A stretch of 7,901 bases of DNA, from assembly GCA_016839845.1 (NCBI GenBank), contig JAEOTL010000400.1, positions 1 through 7,901 of the forward strand, given 5' to 3'. The stretch comes from Promethearchaeota archaeon. Its GTDB lineage: Archaea > Asgardarchaeota > Lokiarchaeia > Sigynarchaeales > SOKP01. The position numbers and the translations under genes were made by a program. Shown piece after piece: positions 1 to 7,444 of this stretch. The notes beneath the pieces are model-generated. The model was not told the DNA's origin. It did not search any database and saw only the letters and a list, made by a program, of their open reading frames with translations. Numbering within the stretch: position 1 is the first letter of the stretch; the number at the start of each line of letters is the position of its first letter.

Positions 1-3000
1 ATGTATTATGGAAATTCTACAATGGGCCCACAAGAAAATCCCACGGGAGTGTGGGATGCTAATTATGTTGGGGTTTGGCATTTATCTGAAGACCCTACTG
101 ACCAAATATACGATTCAACAGAAAATGACAATGATGGGACATCTTATGGTACGATGAATACCGGAGATCAGGTTTCTGGAAAGGTTGACGGAAGTTTAGA
201 ATTTGATGGTATAGATGATTATATAGATTGTGGGAATAATTTATCTCTGGATATAACGGGGGACTTAACAATCCAATATTGGGTTATGGCATATGATGTA
301 AGTAATGATCCTGATACAATTACGAAGGGTGTTTATACTGATGCATATTCTTCTTTTATTAATAATGATCGTACTATTTATTTTAGACTAAATGGGCTTA
401 CTTCAACAAACCTACAAAGTCAAACCCTAATTTCTCTTGATAAATGGGTTAGTATAACCTGTACTCGAATTGGTAATACAATGAGAATTTTTATTAATGG
501 AACTCAAGATCCAACTACAGCTACGTTTTCAGAAGCGATCGAAATAATAACAGATGCATTAACTATAGCTAGAAGTCCTGATAATTTAGATGGGGTAATG
601 GATGAAGCTCGTTTATCTAATATTGCTCGTACGGAAGACTGGATTGCTACTGAGTATAACAACCAATATGATCCTAGCAGTTTTTATACCGTAGGAAACG
701 ATACGGAAGCTCCTGATATTACTATCAACTCTCCTAATCCGAACGAATTTTTTGGGAGTAATGCTCCTTCTTATAATCTTACAGTTACAGACCTAAACCT
801 AGATTCTATTTGGTATTCATTAGATGGTGGAGCCAATTCCACCCCTGTTAGTGAGACAGGAATAATTAACCAAGCAATGTGGAGTGGACGACCAAATGGA
901 ACAGTTACAATTCGATTCTACGCAAATGATACTTTCGGAAATCTGAATTATACGGAAGTAGTAGTTAGAAAAGATATTGTAAATCCTTCAATAGACAGTA
1001 TCGATTCACCATCAGTAGGAACATGGTTTAATAGTGTCCCTCCAAGTTATAGTCTTTCCATTACTGAAGCGAATTTAGATGAGATCTGGTACACGCTCGA
1101 TGGAGGTATAAATAACCATACGGGTGCATTAAGTGGAACAATAGATTCTACAGCTTGGAGCAATGCGGGTCAAGGAAGTGTTACGATAACATTTTATGTA
1201 AACGATACTGCTGATAACTGGGACTCTTTGAGCATAGATATTAACAGAGACACGATTGATCCTATAATTACTAGTATTAATTCACCTTCATCTGGGGCGT
1301 GGTTTAACAGCGTCCCTCCGGGTTACAGCCTTTCCATTACTGAAGCGAATTTGGATGAGATTTGGTACACGCTCGATGGAGGTGTCAACAACTATACAGG
1401 TGCATTAAGTGGAACAATAGATTCTACAGCTTGGAGTAATGCGGGTCAAGGAAGTGTTACGATTACATTCTATGTAAACGATACTGCCGGGAACTGGAAC
1501 TCTATGAGTGTGGATATCAACAGAGATACGATTGATCCTATAATTACTAGTATTGATTCACCTTCTCCTAATTCTAATCATTCAACACCACCAAGCTATA
1601 GTCTTTCCATTACTGAAACAAATTTGGATGAGATCTGGTACACACTCGATGGGGGTATAAACAATTACACTGGAGCATTGAGTGGAACAATCGACTCGAT
1701 AGCATGGGGTAATGCTGGTTTAGGCTCCGTTACGATTACTTTCTACATAAATGATTCCGTAAGTCATTGGGATTCTGATAGTGTGGGAATAATAAAAACT
1801 TCAGATTTATCAATTTCTATTAATACCCCTACTGCTGATAAATGGTTCAACTCCATTCCTGATTACGATGTTTATGTGAGTGGTAATGATCGTGATTCTA
1901 TATGGTATACAATTGATAATGGTCTTAACAACTTCACAATTACCAGCAATGCTGATCTTTCAAATAGCTGGTTTGGAGTAATAGATTCTACAGCATGGAG
2001 CAGCGCTGGCCAGGGTCCTATTACTATTACATTTTATTTAAATGATACGTTTGGCATTACAATCTTCGATACCGTACAAATTAATAAGGATACGATTGAC
2101 CCGATAATTACTAGTATTGATTCACCTTCGTCGGGATTATGGTTTAATAGTATCCCTCCAAGTTATAGCCTTTCAATTACTGAAGCGAATTTAGATGAGA
2201 TCTGGTATACACTTGATGGGGGGATAAACAACTACACAGGAGCTTTGGGTGGAACAATAGATTCTACAGCGTGGAGTAATGCGGGTGAAGGAAGTGTTAC
2301 AATAATATTCTATGTAAATGATACTGCGGGTAATTGGGACTCTATGAGTGTGGATATCAACAGAGATACGATCGATCCTTCGATAGATAGTATTGACTCA
2401 CCATCGTTGGGAGCATGGTTTAATAGCACTCCTCCAAGTTATAGTCTTTCAATTACTGAAGCGAATTTAGATGAGATCTGGTATACACTCGATGGGGGCG
2501 TAAACAACTACACAGGAGCTTTGGGTGGAACAATAGATTCTACAGCGTGGAGCAATGCGGGTCAGGGAAGTGTTACGATCACATTCTATGTAAACGATAC
2601 TGCGGGTAATTGGGACTCTATGAGTGTTGATATCAACAGAGACACAATTGATCCCACTATTGCTATAATAGAACCAAATAACTACGATCTTTTTGGGATT
2701 ACACCTCCTGATATTACTATAAATATTAATGACCTTAATTTGGATGCAAGTTGGTACCAATTGGATAACGGCACGGTTATTACAAGTAATTACTTTTGGA
2801 CAGGGCTTATCGCACAGGGTGTTTGGGATCAAGTCGGGAATGGAACAGTAATAATTCGATTTTTTGCGAATGACACGGCAAGTAACATAGGAGTTGCAGA
2901 AGTTACAGTTTACAAAGATATCTTCTTCCCTATAATAACGATCAATACTCCTAATTCAGACGAAGTATGCAATAGTACAGCACCTAATTTTATGGTTAGT

Positions 3001-4965
3001 GTAAGTGGAAGCAATCTAGATTCACGATGGTATACCTTAGATAATGGATTAGTAAATTATACCTTTATAGGGTTAACTGGAACTATCGATCAATTGGCAT
3101 GGGATGCTCCAGGAGACGGTACAGTAACAATTAAATTCTATATAAATAATACCTTAGGAGTTATCGGTTTTGATGAGATAACAGTCATAAAAGATACTTT
3201 AGTGCCATTAATTACAATTAATCTTCCATTGAATAATACATATTACGGAACTGCTCCATTAATTAATATTTTAGCTTCTGATGCTAATCTTGAATATATA
3301 TGGTATGAAGTAAACACTATACCAATATCATTAGGAAACAATGTAGATCAACAACTCGATACTTCAATTTGGGATAGTCTGCCAGAAGGACCTTTTAATA
3401 TCTACCTTTTTGCGAATGATAGTGTTAGTCATTTGAGTGATCCTATAATGATAACTCTTTATAAAGATACAGTCGCACCTGTAGCTCCGCTTTTACTAAA
3501 TTTTCCTCAAGGAGAAGTAAGCGGTGATTTAATCTTCGAATGGCAAGAAGGTTCTGATCTTTCTGGGATTGCAGAATATCGATTGATTATTGATAATGAA
3601 GCTGATCCTTTTGCTACGCCAGGAACTGTATTCGAAATATATGTAACTGGGAATAATTATACATATATAGGATCTCTTCAACCGGGCACATATTATTACT
3701 TTTTATATCAGATTGATGGAGCAGGTCATCAAAGTCCTGCTTCAACTGGTAGTTTTTCCATAAGATCAAGTTCCCAACCTTCTCCACCCTCAGAATTTCC
3801 TTTATGGATTATTTTTGTTATAATAGGAGCAGCTGTAGGGGGACTAGTTGGAGTTATGGTTTTAAAGAAATCTAAAAACAAGAAGGTTGGCTCTTTTAAG
3901 GAGGAGGCACCACCAAAAGAATTGGAACCTGAAATACAGGTGGAAATAGAAAAAGAATTAACATTATTGGACAATGAAGTTCTAAAAGCAATGAATCGAG
4001 AAGAGTTAATTGCTAGAGAAAAAATACTGGTCAGTACCATTAAGGCTTTAGAGGAAACACAAAAATATGTTAAAGCAACAGAACTTTTAAGCGAAGTAAT
4101 CATTATTGAGGAGCTTCTCGACAACCCTTCTGCAGTTCAATCATACCGTCAGATGCAGATTGATTTTGCGGTTAATGGGCTGGATTACTTAAAAGATCAG
4201 TATGAAATTGAATCAAGAAATGCGGCGGGATCTGGAGATTATTCAAAATCACTAGAATTATACAAGGAGAGTAAAGTAATAGCGGAGAATCTTAAATTAT
4301 ACCTTGAACAACAAAAATCGGCATTACCCAAAAAAGAAACGATTCTGGAATCCATGGAAAAATTAGAACCAATAAAAGATACAGAAATCGTTTATTCTTG
4401 TATTAACGACCTATTAACGAAATATTTTGATGATATTGGGATTAAATACTATTATAATCCTCAAATATATGATGATATAAACAAACAGATTCACGGATTA
4501 ATTCTTACTGATGATAAATTTTTAATTCAGGATGTGGATCCCTCGATTAGGGATAAAATAAAAGCGATTCAAATTCTTTTTGTTGAGGATATATCTAATA
4601 TTGACATTCGAAAATTAGCCAAAATGTTTCAGAGTCCCTCAATGATTTTTATAATCATCGGTATTAAATGGTCTAAAGATGTTGAGAGTCAAATATCTGA
4701 GCTTAACCAAGATAAAAAAATAAGATACCCCGAAAATATTAAACTTGTTAACTATCACTTATTTGCTGACTTAATTGGATTAAAGGGGACCTATAAAGTT
4801 GCTCTAGAAGAGATTGTTCATCTATACGAACATTCAGATATTGATATTCTGCAAAAATCACATGAATCTAGTGCTGTAAGAATGCATGATACCAAGGAAT
4901 TAATCCAAGATCTCAAAGATAAGGGATTGATTAAGAAGAAATTAAAAGAATATTTCCATACTTAA
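1..4965 (+). CDS. Giant LamG/Ig-repeat single-pass surface protein with large cytoplasmic domain (5'-truncated)
   Basis: Probable cell-surface receptor or adhesin; ligand unknown. The first residues (YYGN, then VWDANYVGVWHL and a DST motif) resemble the end of a DUF2341 domain and no signal peptide is present, so the ATG at position 1 is internal and the gene starts upstream. Order in the visible 1654 residues: DUF2341-like tail (1-45); LamG/concanavalin-like jelly roll (about 62-230, with FDGIDDYI and MDEARLSNIAR); ten Ig-like repeats (234-1155); Fn3-like domain (1156-1255); a Ser/Pro linker; one transmembrane helix (1268-1288) followed by a Lys-rich stop-transfer stretch; then about 366 cytoplasmic residues. 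These hold charged helices that could be coiled coil or TPR/MIT-like hairpins (about 1301-1445, with GDYSKSLELYKES) and an alpha/beta region (about 1463-1610) that I do not recognise. The repeats are rich in N-x-S/T sequons. The stop TAA lies 35 bp from the convergent GTPase gene. Architecture is secure; function is inferred. Confidence 0.93.
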   Translation: MYYGNSTMGPQENPTGVWDANYVGVWHLSEDPTDQIYDSTENDNDGTSYGTMNTGDQVSGKVDGSLEFDGIDDYIDCGNNLSLDITGDLTIQYWVMAYDVSNDPDTITKGVYTDAYSSFINNDRTIYFRLNGLTSTNLQSQTLISLDKWVSITCTRIGNTMRIFINGTQDPTTATFSEAIEIITDALTIARSPDNLDGVMDEARLSNIARTEDWIATEYNNQYDPSSFYTVGNDTEAPDITINSPNPNEFFGSNAPSYNLTVTDLNLDSIWYSLDGGANSTPVSETGIINQAMWSGRPNGTVTIRFYANDTFGNLNYTEVVVRKDIVNPSIDSIDSPSVGTWFNSVPPSYSLSITEANLDEIWYTLDGGINNHTGALSGTIDSTAWSNAGQGSVTITFYVNDTADNWDSLSIDINRDTIDPIITSINSPSSGAWFNSVPPGYSLSITEANLDEIWYTLDGGVNNYTGALSGTIDSTAWSNAGQGSVTITFYVNDTAGNWNSMSVDINRDTIDPIITSIDSPSPNSNHSTPPSYSLSITETNLDEIWYTLDGGINNYTGALSGTIDSIAWGNAGLGSVTITFYINDSVSHWDSDSVGIIKTSDLSISINTPTADKWFNSIPDYDVYVSGNDRDSIWYTIDNGLNNFTITSNADLSNSWFGVIDSTAWSSAGQGPITITFYLNDTFGITIFDTVQINKDTIDPIITSIDSPSSGLWFNSIPPSYSLSITEANLDEIWYTLDGGINNYTGALGGTIDSTAWSNAGEGSVTIIFYVNDTAGNWDSMSVDINRDTIDPSIDSIDSPSLGAWFNSTPPSYSLSITEANLDEIWYTLDGGVNNYTGALGGTIDSTAWSNAGQGSVTITFYVNDTAGNWDSMSVDINRDTIDPTIAIIEPNNYDLFGITPPDITININDLNLDASWYQLDNGTVITSNYFWTGLIAQGVWDQVGNGTVIIRFFANDTASNIGVAEVTVYKDIFFPIITINTPNSDEVCNSTAPNFMVSVSGSNLDSRWYTLDNGLVNYTFIGLTGTIDQLAWDAPGDGTVTIKFYINNTLGVIGFDEITVIKDTLVPLITINLPLNNTYYGTAPLINILASDANLEYIWYEVNTIPISLGNNVDQQLDTSIWDSLPEGPFNIYLFANDSVSHLSDPIMITLYKDTVAPVAPLLLNFPQGEVSGDLIFEWQEGSDLSGIAEYRLIIDNEADPFATPGTVFEIYVTGNNYTYIGSLQPGTYYYFLYQIDGAGHQSPASTGSFSIRSSSQPSPPSEFPLWIIFVIIGAAVGGLVGVMVLKKSKNKKVGSFKEEAPPKELEPEIQVEIEKELTLLDNEVLKAMNREELIAREKILVSTIKALEETQKYVKATELLSEVIIIEELLDNPSAVQSYRQMQIDFAVNGLDYLKDQYEIESRNAAGSGDYSKSLELYKESKVIAENLKLYLEQQKSALPKKETILESMEKLEPIKDTEIVYSCINDLLTKYFDDIGIKYYYNPQIYDDINKQIHGLILTDDKFLIQDVDPSIRDKIKAIQILFVEDISNIDIRKLAKMFQSPSMIFIIIGIKWSKDVESQISELNQDKKIRYPENIKLVNYHLFADLIGLKGTYKVALEEIVHLYEHSDIDILQKSHESSAVRMHDTKELIQDLKDKGLIKKKLKEYFHT
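700..3465 (+). repeat. Ten tandem Ig-like repeat units inside the surface-protein gene
   Basis: Units begin at a conserved Asp after a basic residue (D-x-x-x-P) at positions 700, 973, 1249, 1525, about 1798, 2089, 2365, 2641, 2917 and 3193. Most are exactly 276 bp (92 codons). The pattern is a DTIDP-like start, a PPSYSLSI-like strand, NLDEIWYTLDGG, a DSTAW core, then FYVNDTAGNW. Units 2, 3, 4, 6 and 7 are very alike; units 1, 8, 9 and 10 are diverged but alignable; unit 5 is longer (about 97 codons) and mosaic. Such modules are typical of extended archaeal surface stalks. Unit starts group in two kinds: PIITSI (units 3, 4, 6) and PSIDSIDSPS (units 2, 7), which suggests duplication of multi-unit blocks. 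Confidence 0.95.
2089..2640 (+). repeat. Near-identical pair of 276-bp repeat units (units 6 and 7)
   Basis: Two adjacent units at an exact 276-bp offset differ at about 29 positions by hand count, roughly 90% nucleotide identity. One uninterrupted 52-bp match joins 2225-2276 to 2501-2552. Differences concentrate in the first 45 bp of each unit. This is the closest pair in the array and probably the most recently duplicated or gene-converted. Confidence 0.85.
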
Positions 4966-5000: not shown

Positions 5001-6548
5001 CTAAATATTTTTAATAGTATTGAATAATGTATTTAATTGTTCATATAGTTCTAGTCGAAATTCAGAACTTATCTTAAATATGAAATAAGAAATTTGTTTT
5101 TCTTCTAATTTTGTGTAAAAATCAAATTCACCCATCATTTTTGACCAGTTAACCGTTTCCTTAGTTATTATACCAATTAATATTACTGCATTATCCTTAA
5201 GAGCTTCAATTAGTTTTAAAACAATATTATTCCATTTGGGATTAATCGAATCCATTTTTTTTGCATCAAAGATGATACAAACTCCATCGGAATCAGAAAT
5301 CTTCATAGAATCAAAATTAAAGCTTTCTAGGATTAAACCATTTGAAAATTTATAAATTTCTTTATCTTTCTTTCCTTTTTTTGAGGGTGATCCTAGCTCC
5401 TCTATTTCTTTTAAAAGTGTTACAACGGGATTGCTTAAAAAATCCATTGAAATGAATGCAATTGATAAAGAATCTCTAGTTTCGAGGATTGAATTAATTT
5501 CGTTAAAAATCTTAGTTTTTAACCTGCTTTCTTCAAACATTTTACTTAGCATAATATAATGATAAGCCACGATCCCAAATGCTTCTTCAATATTCTCTCC
5601 AGTTAGAGCACTTGTTTCAATATATGAAATCTTTCTGGCGTGTTTTTCAGATAGCATTTCTGCCAGGTTAACTCCCTCCTCATAATCGACTTCCCTTTGT
5701 TGTTCTAAATCCCTTTTATTTCCAACAATTACTACTGATAATTTCTTTTCACTAAATTCGTTTAATTCATCAAACCAATTTACTACGTTATAAAATGAAT
5801 CCCTATTTGTTATATCAAATACGATAAAAGCTGCTTGTGCCCCTTTATAATAAACCTTACGATATCTCTTAAAATACTGTTGAGCACCAATATCCCAGAG
5901 AAACAGACTAATTTCATTCCCAAAAAATTCAAAATCATGAGTTAAAACATTCAAGCCTATAGTCGTTCGATAATCTGCTAAAAACCTGCCTTCTGCAAAC
6001 CGACGCATTATTGAAGTTTTACCGACTTCATGTTCACCTATAATTATAAATTTAAATCTATATAACCCACCAGATTCTAATCCAATTTGATAGTATTGGT
6101 TGTCACTGCCATAATATCCTTCGGTTTTATATTCAAAATTAGGGATTGATAATTCAATTAAATCACCCTCTGAGGCAACCAATATCTGAGCCACTTTTTC
6201 AGCTAGAAAATACGCATATGGCGCTATCTTATCTATGGATCCAAGAATTTCAATAACTAAACTTAATGTTATATTCTCAGTTATAGATATAAATAGAATA
6301 CGATCTCGTTCGGTATCAAAATTAGCCGTTCCAAATTTTTTGTATGAGAATTCATCTCGAAATCTCTCGATAACAGGATTAACTATAGCGGTCATAATCG
6401 AAACTAGCTCTAAGTCTACATCTTTTCTTCGTTCACCAGCTATAACTAGTCCATCTTGATCGGAAACAATGATGGCTTCAACTTGTGTATTTATCTTTAA
6501 GAAGTTGTTAAACAATTCGCTTAATAATATATTTTTGTTAATCGCCAA
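5001..6548 (-). CDS. Roadblock/LC7 - Rab/Ras-like small GTPase - degenerate G-domain fusion
   Basis: A cytoplasmic GTP-binding switch protein of 515 residues. Residues 5-125 form a Roadblock/LC7 (MglB-like) domain; this fold dimerises and regulates or scaffolds small GTPases in MglA/MglB and Ragulator-Rag. Residues 163-335 form the G domain: P-loop GEHEVGKT (171-178), switch I DYRTTIG (192-198), switch II WDIGAQ (218-223), NKRD (277-280) and ETSAL (311-315). All G motifs are present, but switch II reads D-I-G-A-Q, with Ala where DxxG has its Gly; the Gln equivalent to Ras Q61 is kept. Residues about 360-513 resemble a second G domain with no working motif. The C-terminus (TIKNI) has no Cys, so no prenylation signal is visible. 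The start is TTG, chosen because a GAGGT ribosome site sits 7 nt upstream, an in-frame TAG lies ten codons further up, and the Roadblock domain begins at once. Family assignment is firm; the partner and pathway are unknown. Confidence 0.93.
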   Translation of the reverse strand: MAINKNILLSELFNNFLKINTQVEAIIVSDQDGLVIAGERRKDVDLELVSIMTAIVNPVIERFRDEFSYKKFGTANFDTERDRILFISITENITLSLVIEILGSIDKIAPYAYFLAEKVAQILVASEGDLIELSIPNFEYKTEGYYGSDNQYYQIGLESGGLYRFKFIIIGEHEVGKTSIMRRFAEGRFLADYRTTIGLNVLTHDFEFFGNEISLFLWDIGAQQYFKRYRKVYYKGAQAAFIVFDITNRDSFYNVVNWFDELNEFSEKKLSVVIVGNKRDLEQQREVDYEEGVNLAEMLSEKHARKISYIETSALTGENIEEAFGIVAYHYIMLSKMFEESRLKTKIFNEINSILETRDSLSIAFISMDFLSNPVVTLLKEIEELGSPSKKGKKDKEIYKFSNGLILESFNFDSMKISDSDGVCIIFDAKKMDSINPKWNNIVLKLIEALKDNAVILIGIITKETVNWSKMMGEFDFYTKLEEKQISYFIFKISSEFRLELYEQLNTLFNTIKNI

Positions 6549-6778: not shown

Positions 6779-7444
6779 TCAATAAATAAAAGGGATAAGT
6801 CTTTTAGTCCGTTTTTTATAATCTTCAAATTGTTTCCCAAACTTCTTTAATAATAGTCTTTCTTCCTCAATTATACGCATTCTAAATATTAAAAAGTAAT
6901 AAATAAACATTATAATAAGAATAATGACACTTCTGAAAACAAGACAAAATCCTATAGTTGCAATTAAACCACCAGAATACATGGGATTTCTAATATAATT
7001 ATACACACCGTTAGTAATGAGTTGGTGATTCTTTTCAATAATCAATTCACCTGTCCCAAATCGTCCTAATTGAGTTCTTGCGATAATTGTGAAAAGTCCA
7101 CCGGAAAGATAAATAGTAAATCCTAGATAACTCACAATAATATTATTCCAGAGAGGAATAAACAAAGTTATTAATATCTTATTTTCATAAAAGGCTCCAA
7201 TCAAGAAGAAAGGAGAGGCTAAGATCATTACTAGAATTAAAATGCTGTATTTTTTTGATGGTGCTCTTTCCTCTGGTAAAGAACGAATCAATGTATCAGC
7301 AAGTGTAATTACGTAAGCAGTGATTAAATAAAGCACATAAATAGGAATAAAATAAATCTCGGGTGCGAGTAATATATAGAATAGATTCTGGTAAATAAGA
7401 TAAATAACTATGAAAAGAAGTAGCTTTTTCCCTATATCTTTCAT
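6779..7444 (-). CDS. Isoprenylcysteine carboxyl methyltransferase / phospholipid methyltransferase family membrane protein
   Basis: An integral membrane SAM-dependent methyltransferase of 221 residues, the usual size for prokaryotic ICMT/PEMT-like proteins. Hydrophobic segments lie at about 7-27, 30-50, 67-87, 100-122 and a hairpin-like stretch at 158-187. The family signature is clear: HQLITNGVYNYIRNPMYSGG (residues 140-159), with the R-N-P-M-Y core, then E194/E195, the FG pair at 202-203, Y209 and a closing RLIP. In this fold these C-terminal residues bind SAM. The substrate cannot be read from the sequence: prenylcysteine, a phospholipid or another lipid are all possible. The ATG at 7444 has no ribosome site, but a TATA-like element about 30 bp upstream fits a nearly leaderless mRNA. 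The GTPase gene follows on the same strand after 230 bp, and its product lacks a C-terminal Cys. Confidence 0.85.
   Translation of the reverse strand: MKDIGKKLLLFIVIYLIYQNLFYILLAPEIYFIPIYVLYLITAYVITLADTLIRSLPEERAPSKKYSILILVMILASPFFLIGAFYENKILITLFIPLWNNIIVSYLGFTIYLSGGLFTIIARTQLGRFGTGELIIEKNHQLITNGVYNYIRNPMYSGGLIATIGFCLVFRSVIILIIMFIYYFLIFRMRIIEEERLLLKKFGKQFEDYKKRTKRLIPFIY

Follow-up and report, generated by a model that had tools for sequence, protein, structure and literature searches.

A family of Lokiarchaeal Roadblock-GTPases with a probable pseudoGTPase domain at the C-terminus

Positions 1 to 7,901 of contig JAEOTL010000400.1 from a Promethearchaeota archaeon assembly (GCA_016839845.1) were analyzed, and this whole stretch of 7,901 nucleotides is called the window here. 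A gene at 5001..6548 on the reverse strand, with a TTG start and a frame that is open to 6575, codes for a protein of 515 amino acids in which Pfam recognizes one domain, a Ras-type GTP-binding (G) domain at residues 166-327 (E 9.9e-44). This raises the question what the C-terminal part of the protein is and what it does next to a GTPase. A first-pass annotation had read residues 360-513 as a second, dead G domain and the whole chain as reminiscent of a Rag heterodimer in cis. The observation was confirmed and the interpretation is partly supported. Three domains make up the protein, namely a Roadblock domain, a GTP-binding Ras/Rab-like G domain and a C-terminal pseudoGTPase domain, and it belongs to a family that is conserved in Lokiarchaea. 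The explanation as a whole, i.e., this family together with a switch which is paired by the Roadblock domains and has a pseudoG domain as non-binding partner, is given a probability of roughly 55%.

Domain Organization of the Protein

The structure of the full-length protein was predicted with AlphaFold2 (AF2) from 121 sequences, comprising the window protein and 120 of the first 126 retrieved proteins. The model has a mean predicted local distance difference test score (pLDDT) of 85.5 and a predicted template modeling score (pTM) of 0.82. It contains three folded parts, namely residues 5-123 in the order of a Roadblock domain, residues 162-336 as a G domain and residues 361-514 as a second alpha/beta domain. 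All features of the protein lie on the reverse strand. The Ras/Rab-like G domain (residues 163-330, 5559..6062) and the pseudoGTPase domain (residues 360-513, 5010..5471) are joined in the model by a single unbroken helix (residues 320-355, 5484..5591), which leads from alpha-5 of the G domain into the pseudoG domain.

The N-terminal domain (residues 1-128, 6165..6548) shows the predicted order alpha-beta-beta-alpha-beta-beta-beta-alpha. A Robl_LC7 match was found in 24 of 46 family members at E ≤ 1 (best 1.9e-4), and the profile of the domain finds the Roadblock/LC7 protein 7yh1 with an E-value of 6.2e-4, the sole match under 1e-3. Both the fold order and the profile match are those of Roadblock/LC7 domains. 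In eukaryotes, such domains keep growth-control GTPases together in pairs. The window sequence alone stays below the cut-off of the Pfam Roadblock model (13.6 vs. 23 bits).

Among the 120 homologs listed out of 911, the identity to the 515-residue protein is 51-98%, and at least 97% of the query is aligned in 119 of them. The C-terminal domain is present in 161 of 193 retrieved proteins.

The C-Terminal Domain

In the AF2 model, the first half of the C-terminal domain is built of beta (361-366), alpha (374-380), beta (389-393/396-400) and beta (405-410). The second half follows with beta (422-428), alpha (437-449), beta (455-461), alpha (468-484, in two pieces), beta (487-493) and alpha (497-514). 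This is the order of a Ras-like G-domain fold, as had been proposed, without helix alpha-2, which is absent from both predicted structures, that of the full-length protein and that of the domain itself. The latter was modeled from the window domain and 95 of 98 complete domains, one copy each of loci L003, L023 and L051 being omitted. GTPases top both the fold search and the profile search with this domain. By fold search of the predicted structures it is Arf-like in shape, and the intact G domain is Rab-like. Searches of Pfam and NCBIfam yielded no fitting family for the C-terminal domain, and that of the window gives 0 Pfam matches at E ≤ 1.

The profile of the C-terminal domain was compared with that of the G domain of the same protein using hhalign, which aligned 41-42 columns with P-values of 3.9e-4 or 8.3e-4. 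The score of 29.0 was reached by 0 of 200 column-shuffled C-domain profiles (highest 25.7), and the controls with a reversed C-domain profile and with the Roadblock profile gave 15.3 and 17.1. A broader alignment scored 27.6 (P 4.7e-3), with 19.1 (P 0.066) for its Roadblock control. For beta-4 and beta-5, the register is the one proposed in the first-pass annotation. Strand beta-4 with the sequence DGVCIIFDAKK (residues 421-431, 5256..5288) corresponds to AAFIVFDITN of the G domain and is also placed there by a PDB profile alignment to Rho6, and strand beta-5 with the sequence VILIGI (residues 455-460, 5169..5186) is followed by ITKE in place of NKxD. The significant sequence match spans beta-4 to beta-5 alone, and the remainder of the likeness comes from the predicted fold.

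The short extent of this similarity, about 40-60 residues, would fit an unrelated alpha/beta Rossmann-like domain that became G-like by convergence, and so would the Pfam matches of 96 C-domain members, which scatter over unrelated families, with no GTPase family among the 25 listed out of 40. Such a convergence is highly improbable in view of the leading position of GTPases in both searches, the shuffled controls and the glycine preceding the NKxD position, which is kept in 251 of 268 C-terminal domains. This and the following motif counts refer to an alignment of 271 sequences (267 distinct), of which 268 were long enough for the count of each domain. By its predicted fold and its motifs, the C-terminal domain is very probably a pseudoGTPase.

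Profiles were also compared with regard to its family and source. The own G domains (268) scored 27.6, 12 other Asgard G domains 27.3 and seven Arf-like domains 18.1. An internal duplication of the own G domain is not favored over another origin by this comparison, since own and other Asgard G domains score alike in these small and unequal sets. Trp439, which matches a Trp of G-domain helix alpha-3, was considered as a Rab/Rho marker and then discarded because four deep relatives (L075-L078) lack it.

The P-loop pattern GxxxxGK[ST] occurs in 268 of 268 G domains and in 0 of 268 C-terminal domains. At its position, the window protein reads SMDFLSNP (residues 367-374, 5427..5450), and the commonest strings in the family mostly end with W[SN]P. 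The P-loop lysine is replaced by Ser, Asn, Asp, Thr, Ala, Cys or His and is never kept. Likewise, none of the 268 C-terminal domains has [NT]KxD at the aligned position. The first-pass annotation had considered all four nucleotide-binding motifs lost, which is borne out for the P-loop and for the aligned [NT]KxD. Seven of the 268 carry DxxG between residues 404 and 420, right before beta-4 and not after beta-3. Furthermore, TK[KR]D is found two residues beyond the aligned G4 position in nine proteins (P0012, P0024-P0027, P0029, P0031, P0032, and P0035). These are close to the window protein, which reads TKET there (5154-5165), and the commonest form in the family is GIRVS. Since the P-loop is missing, TK[KR]D is more likely due to chance than a working G4 motif, or is perhaps a remnant. 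The predicted fold and the motif counts support the claim that one chain holds a Roadblock domain, a G domain and a dead G domain.

Pro374, at the position of the P-loop Ser/Thr, is present in 266 of 268 C-terminal domains, and Trp or Phe at residue 372 in 219, which indicates that this position is under a constraint of its own. The domain might therefore have an unconventional binding site for a nucleotide or some other small ligand, formed by the conserved W[SN]P that it has in place of the P-loop, and the TK[KR]D after beta-5 in the nine relatives would point in the same direction. This alternative is improbable, as all 268 lack a P-loop, a lysine at its position and an aligned [NT]KxD, helix alpha-2 is missing and the window itself has TKET.

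The C-terminal domain is kept by purifying selection. The ratio of nonsynonymous to synonymous substitution rates (dN/dS) is 0.08-0.31 in 13 of 13 close pairs, and 12 of these 13 have a higher value for the C-terminal domain than for the G domain. With a mean identity of 43% vs. 62% (1500 sampled pairs), the C-terminal domain is the faster-evolving of the two.

The Intact G Domain

The G domain has an intact P-loop (GEHEVGKT, residues 171-178, 6015..6038) and an intact NKRD (residues 277-280, 5709..5720). All 268 sequences retain Lys177, Thr196 and [NT]KxD, and 266 retain Gln223. By the G1, G4 and G5 motifs and the fold, residues 163-330 belong to the small GTPases of the Ras superfamily. The canonical DxxG of G3 is lacking, since the window has DIGAQ within the altered motif WDIGAQ (residues 218-223, 5880..5897), with alanine at the position of Ras Gly60. 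The earlier description as an active GTPase is corrected here with regard to this G3 motif, in which 241 of 268 sequences have Ala or Ser at the Gly60 position (Ala 238, Ser 3). Of the 27 sequences with Gly, 21 are deep relatives. In relatives without the C-terminal domain, Gly was found in six of six proteins (P0146-P0151) and in both Helarchaeal copies of locus L067.

The Ras mutant G60A is described as mainly adopting state 1 with drastically impaired GTPase activity (PMC4867591) and as mimicking a non-signaling conformation (PMC7067412). If the Rab-like domain of these Asgard proteins behaves as Ras does, its Ala or Ser in place of Gly60 predicts GTP binding with little hydrolysis or switching. 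The G domain thus probably binds GTP, and may switch or hydrolyze poorly because of its altered G3.

Distribution of the Family

A profile of the C-terminal domain was run against 227 genomes of the phylum, with no more than 15 candidates scored in each, and matched 62 of them, which is a minimum number. A 63rd genome (G004) was discarded, as its match is a different Ras-like protein. The matches sit in frames of 491-575 amino acids, apart from two in G112 (837 and 897 amino acids), shorter frames that run into the end of a contig and a single internal fragment in G152. The same domain order was also found in five divergent genomes (G088, G159, G160, G162, and G163), the 5′ part of the gene lying off the contig in G162. 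In the GTDB contig collection, from which the 80 best matches in 73 loci were taken, all of the family loci L001-L066 are located in records titled Lokiarchaeota or Lokiarchaeia. The sequence neighbors of the window protein among the 120 homologs listed out of 911 are Lokiarchaeal, too, with some database names of close proteins differing.

Two other G-domain frames were observed during these searches. A Helarchaeal Ras-family frame (L111:469-1689, reverse strand; Pfam Ras 6.2e-12) has WDISME at G3, LIGLNSD in the G4 region and no P-loop, and is perhaps a degenerate GTPase. A frame of 641 amino acids (L081 and L099, G160:C116:1136-2461) contains two tandem Arf-like G domains, each with P-loop, DxxG and [NT]KxD patterns.

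Tandem Gene Pairs and Proposed Function

Two family copies lie side by side on the same strand in 31 of 66 loci, with gaps between the frames of -22 to 835 bp. Not included in this count are L080, a repeat of L064, the loci L006, L026, L058, and L064, whose copies are more than 1 kb apart, and L012, where the contig stops within the second gene. In the tree, the second genes of 29 of the 31 pairs (L003 and L005 being the exceptions) fall into one clade of 34 tips with a support of 0.947, among them two single-copy loci. The first genes of these pairs form two well supported clades of 14 and 20 tips, whose union has a support of only 0.361. This pattern points to an ancient duplication whose copies have stayed adjacent, as would be expected if the two products interact as subunits. 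In locus L046:3476-4311, a C-domain fragment with an internal stop is located between tandem copies (G152:C282:3987-4181) and is perhaps a decayed third copy.

A possible function can be proposed from Roadblock biology and these gene pairs. The Roadblock domains would pair two chains, either with themselves or, in many species, with a paralog encoded next door, and two G domains would thereby meet in the manner of a Rag/Gtr dimer. Each G domain would bind GTP and change slowly, and the pseudoG domain without nucleotide binding would be a fixed G-shaped partner, packing on the G domain or recruiting further proteins. In this way, an invariable domain would stand beside the one whose nucleotide state is read out. 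This mechanism is proposed tentatively, at somewhat less than even odds. A Rag-like heterodimer in cis, as considered in the first-pass annotation, is less likely in view of the Roadblock domain, which is N-terminal here and C-terminal in Rags, of the two Rag subunits, which are both active GTPases, and of the tandem gene pairs, which suggest a partnership in trans. More likely is a Rag-like partnership between two chains by way of their Roadblock domains, with the dead domain as a nucleotide-free module on each. A complete Lokiarchaeal machine like Rag/Ragulator, composed of Roadblock-paired chains, a slow G60A-like domain, a rigid helix and a dead fixed partner, and often an obligate heterodimer of tandem paralogs, is doubtful.

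Several observations weigh against the proposed explanation. Dimerization is deduced from Roadblock biology and gene pairs. A single copy is present in 37 locus records, and in 13 of these the sequence extends for approximately 8 kb to either side. One copy is also seen in the window and in the loci closest to it (L001 and L002), which means that a neighbor is not required and that a homodimer or a distant partner would be; a tandem pair exists elsewhere in the genome of L001. Both structures are predictions, and the packing of the G and pseudoG domains on each other is hypothetical. The fold search with the C-terminal domain gave no title naming a Rag among the 50 matches listed, which excludes nothing. 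The hhalign probabilities are low, with 7-36% against own, other and mixed G domains and 0.5% against the small Arf-like set, whose score of 18.1 is below the Roadblock control of 19.1. The dS values are low in several close pairs (from 0.07), which makes single dN/dS ratios noisy, and for the nine TK[KR]D proteins this motif itself is a counterpoint.

The loci with one copy would also fit a pseudoG domain that is a protein-binding scaffold or an autoinhibitory module with no Rag-like role, the Roadblock domain acting on the G domain alone, as MglB on MglA. With the Roadblock profile, MglB is a weak match (E 0.47-0.78) that hardly differs from histone entries (0.73-0.99), and the faster evolution of the C-terminal domain is in line with such a role. 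As precedents, CENP-M is described as driving kinetochore assembly though unable to bind GTP (PMC4080450), and RhoGAP activity is described as falling on deletion of the pseudoGTPase domains of p190RhoGAP (PMC5593906). However, fragments and contig ends aside, the C-terminal domain is found in frames long enough for a Roadblock and a G domain, which hold both where examined. This suggests that it works with them, and tandem pairs are frequent. A scaffold or autoinhibitory module is rather unlikely.

Comparison With Known Systems

Two G domains per chain are also known from Miro/RHOT, which differs by EF hands between them and by a membrane anchor. In bacteria, the Ras-like GTPase MglA is regulated by the Roadblock protein MglB, but these are separate chains not known to contain a pseudoG domain. 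The human CENP-M, in contrast to the family described here, is a single domain and is not known to have a Roadblock or an active G domain. It resembles the C-terminal domain in having a small-G-protein fold whose P-loop glycines and other motifs are lost (PMC4080450). Similarly, p190RhoGAP is a regulator of several domains, among them G folds whose nucleotide binding is defective (PMC5593906), but this is a RhoGAP protein and not a Roadblock-GTPase. The family is a further case of pseudoGTPases, an already known kind. Those compared here are eukaryotic, and a conserved Lokiarchaeal family would place the principle in the archaeal relatives of eukaryotes. If true, pseudoenzymes of this type and cis-paired G domains would not be a eukaryotic invention.

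The eukaryotic Rag/Gtr proteins on Ragulator/EGO are alike in that a G domain and a Roadblock domain share one chain and two G-type domains are partnered, here often encoded by two adjacent genes. Both Rag subunits are described as active GTPases, and their nucleotide-binding domains as assigned to the Arf family (PMC8254048). In contrast, the intact Lokiarchaeal G domain is Rab-like by fold, the Roadblock domain is N-terminal (residues 1-128) instead of C-terminal, and each chain has an extra dead G domain. Due to the Arf assignment of the Rag domains, a role similar to that of Rags is compatible with a dead domain of Arf-like shape. Gtr1_RagA matches are weak (26 of 46 members, best 8.6e-6, none in the window sequence), and Ras matches far better. 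Because of these matches and the Roadblock position, the family is not filed as Rag, although it may still work like one.

In the Asgard archaeon MK-D1, GTPases fused to Roadblock or longin, ‘?’ domains of unknown function and one operonic Rag-like pair have been described (Tran et al., 2024, PMC10933270). No pseudoGTPase domain is described in the passages of that study that were consulted. No description of the family was found in the literature searched, supplementary files not being covered. The family would be a model for the assembly of Roadblock domains, paired G domains and Rag-type signaling.

Genomic Context

Upstream of the GTPase gene and on the same strand, the window contains a gene for a PEMT/ICMT-like methyltransferase (6779-7444, reverse strand). 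Convergent with the GTPase gene is a gene for a large surface-type protein (1-4965, forward strand) with Laminin_G_3 and Big_13 repeats and, as judged by eye, a transmembrane segment and a cytosolic tail. The C-terminal domain was not found in this protein by profile (-2.6 bits), and relatives of the protein are present in L001, L002, L006, and L052.

The contexts vary among lineages, so none defines a function. Of 67 loci in which upstream sequence is available, 47 have a gene of a RING-finger cluster in head-to-head orientation to the family gene, at a distance of 42-256 bp from its frame. The one representative tested (L015:122-694, reverse strand) matches zf-RING_2 with an E-value of 1.9e-7. 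In L075:298-8943, L076:25-10318, and L077:50-10001, the family gene adjoins genes of HMG-CoA reductase, GHMP kinase, amino-acid-kinase-type and flavin mononucleotide (FMN)-dependent proteins, read by eye as mevalonate pathway. The isoprenoid and CAAX-protease neighbors suggested that prenylation might anchor the protein to a membrane, but this is unsupported, as 0 of 268 proteins have a cysteine in the last five residues. Finally, an Rce1-like CAAX protease cluster was found in L074, L075, L076, and L078, and a Glu-tRNA synthetase gene lies near the family gene in L074-L078.
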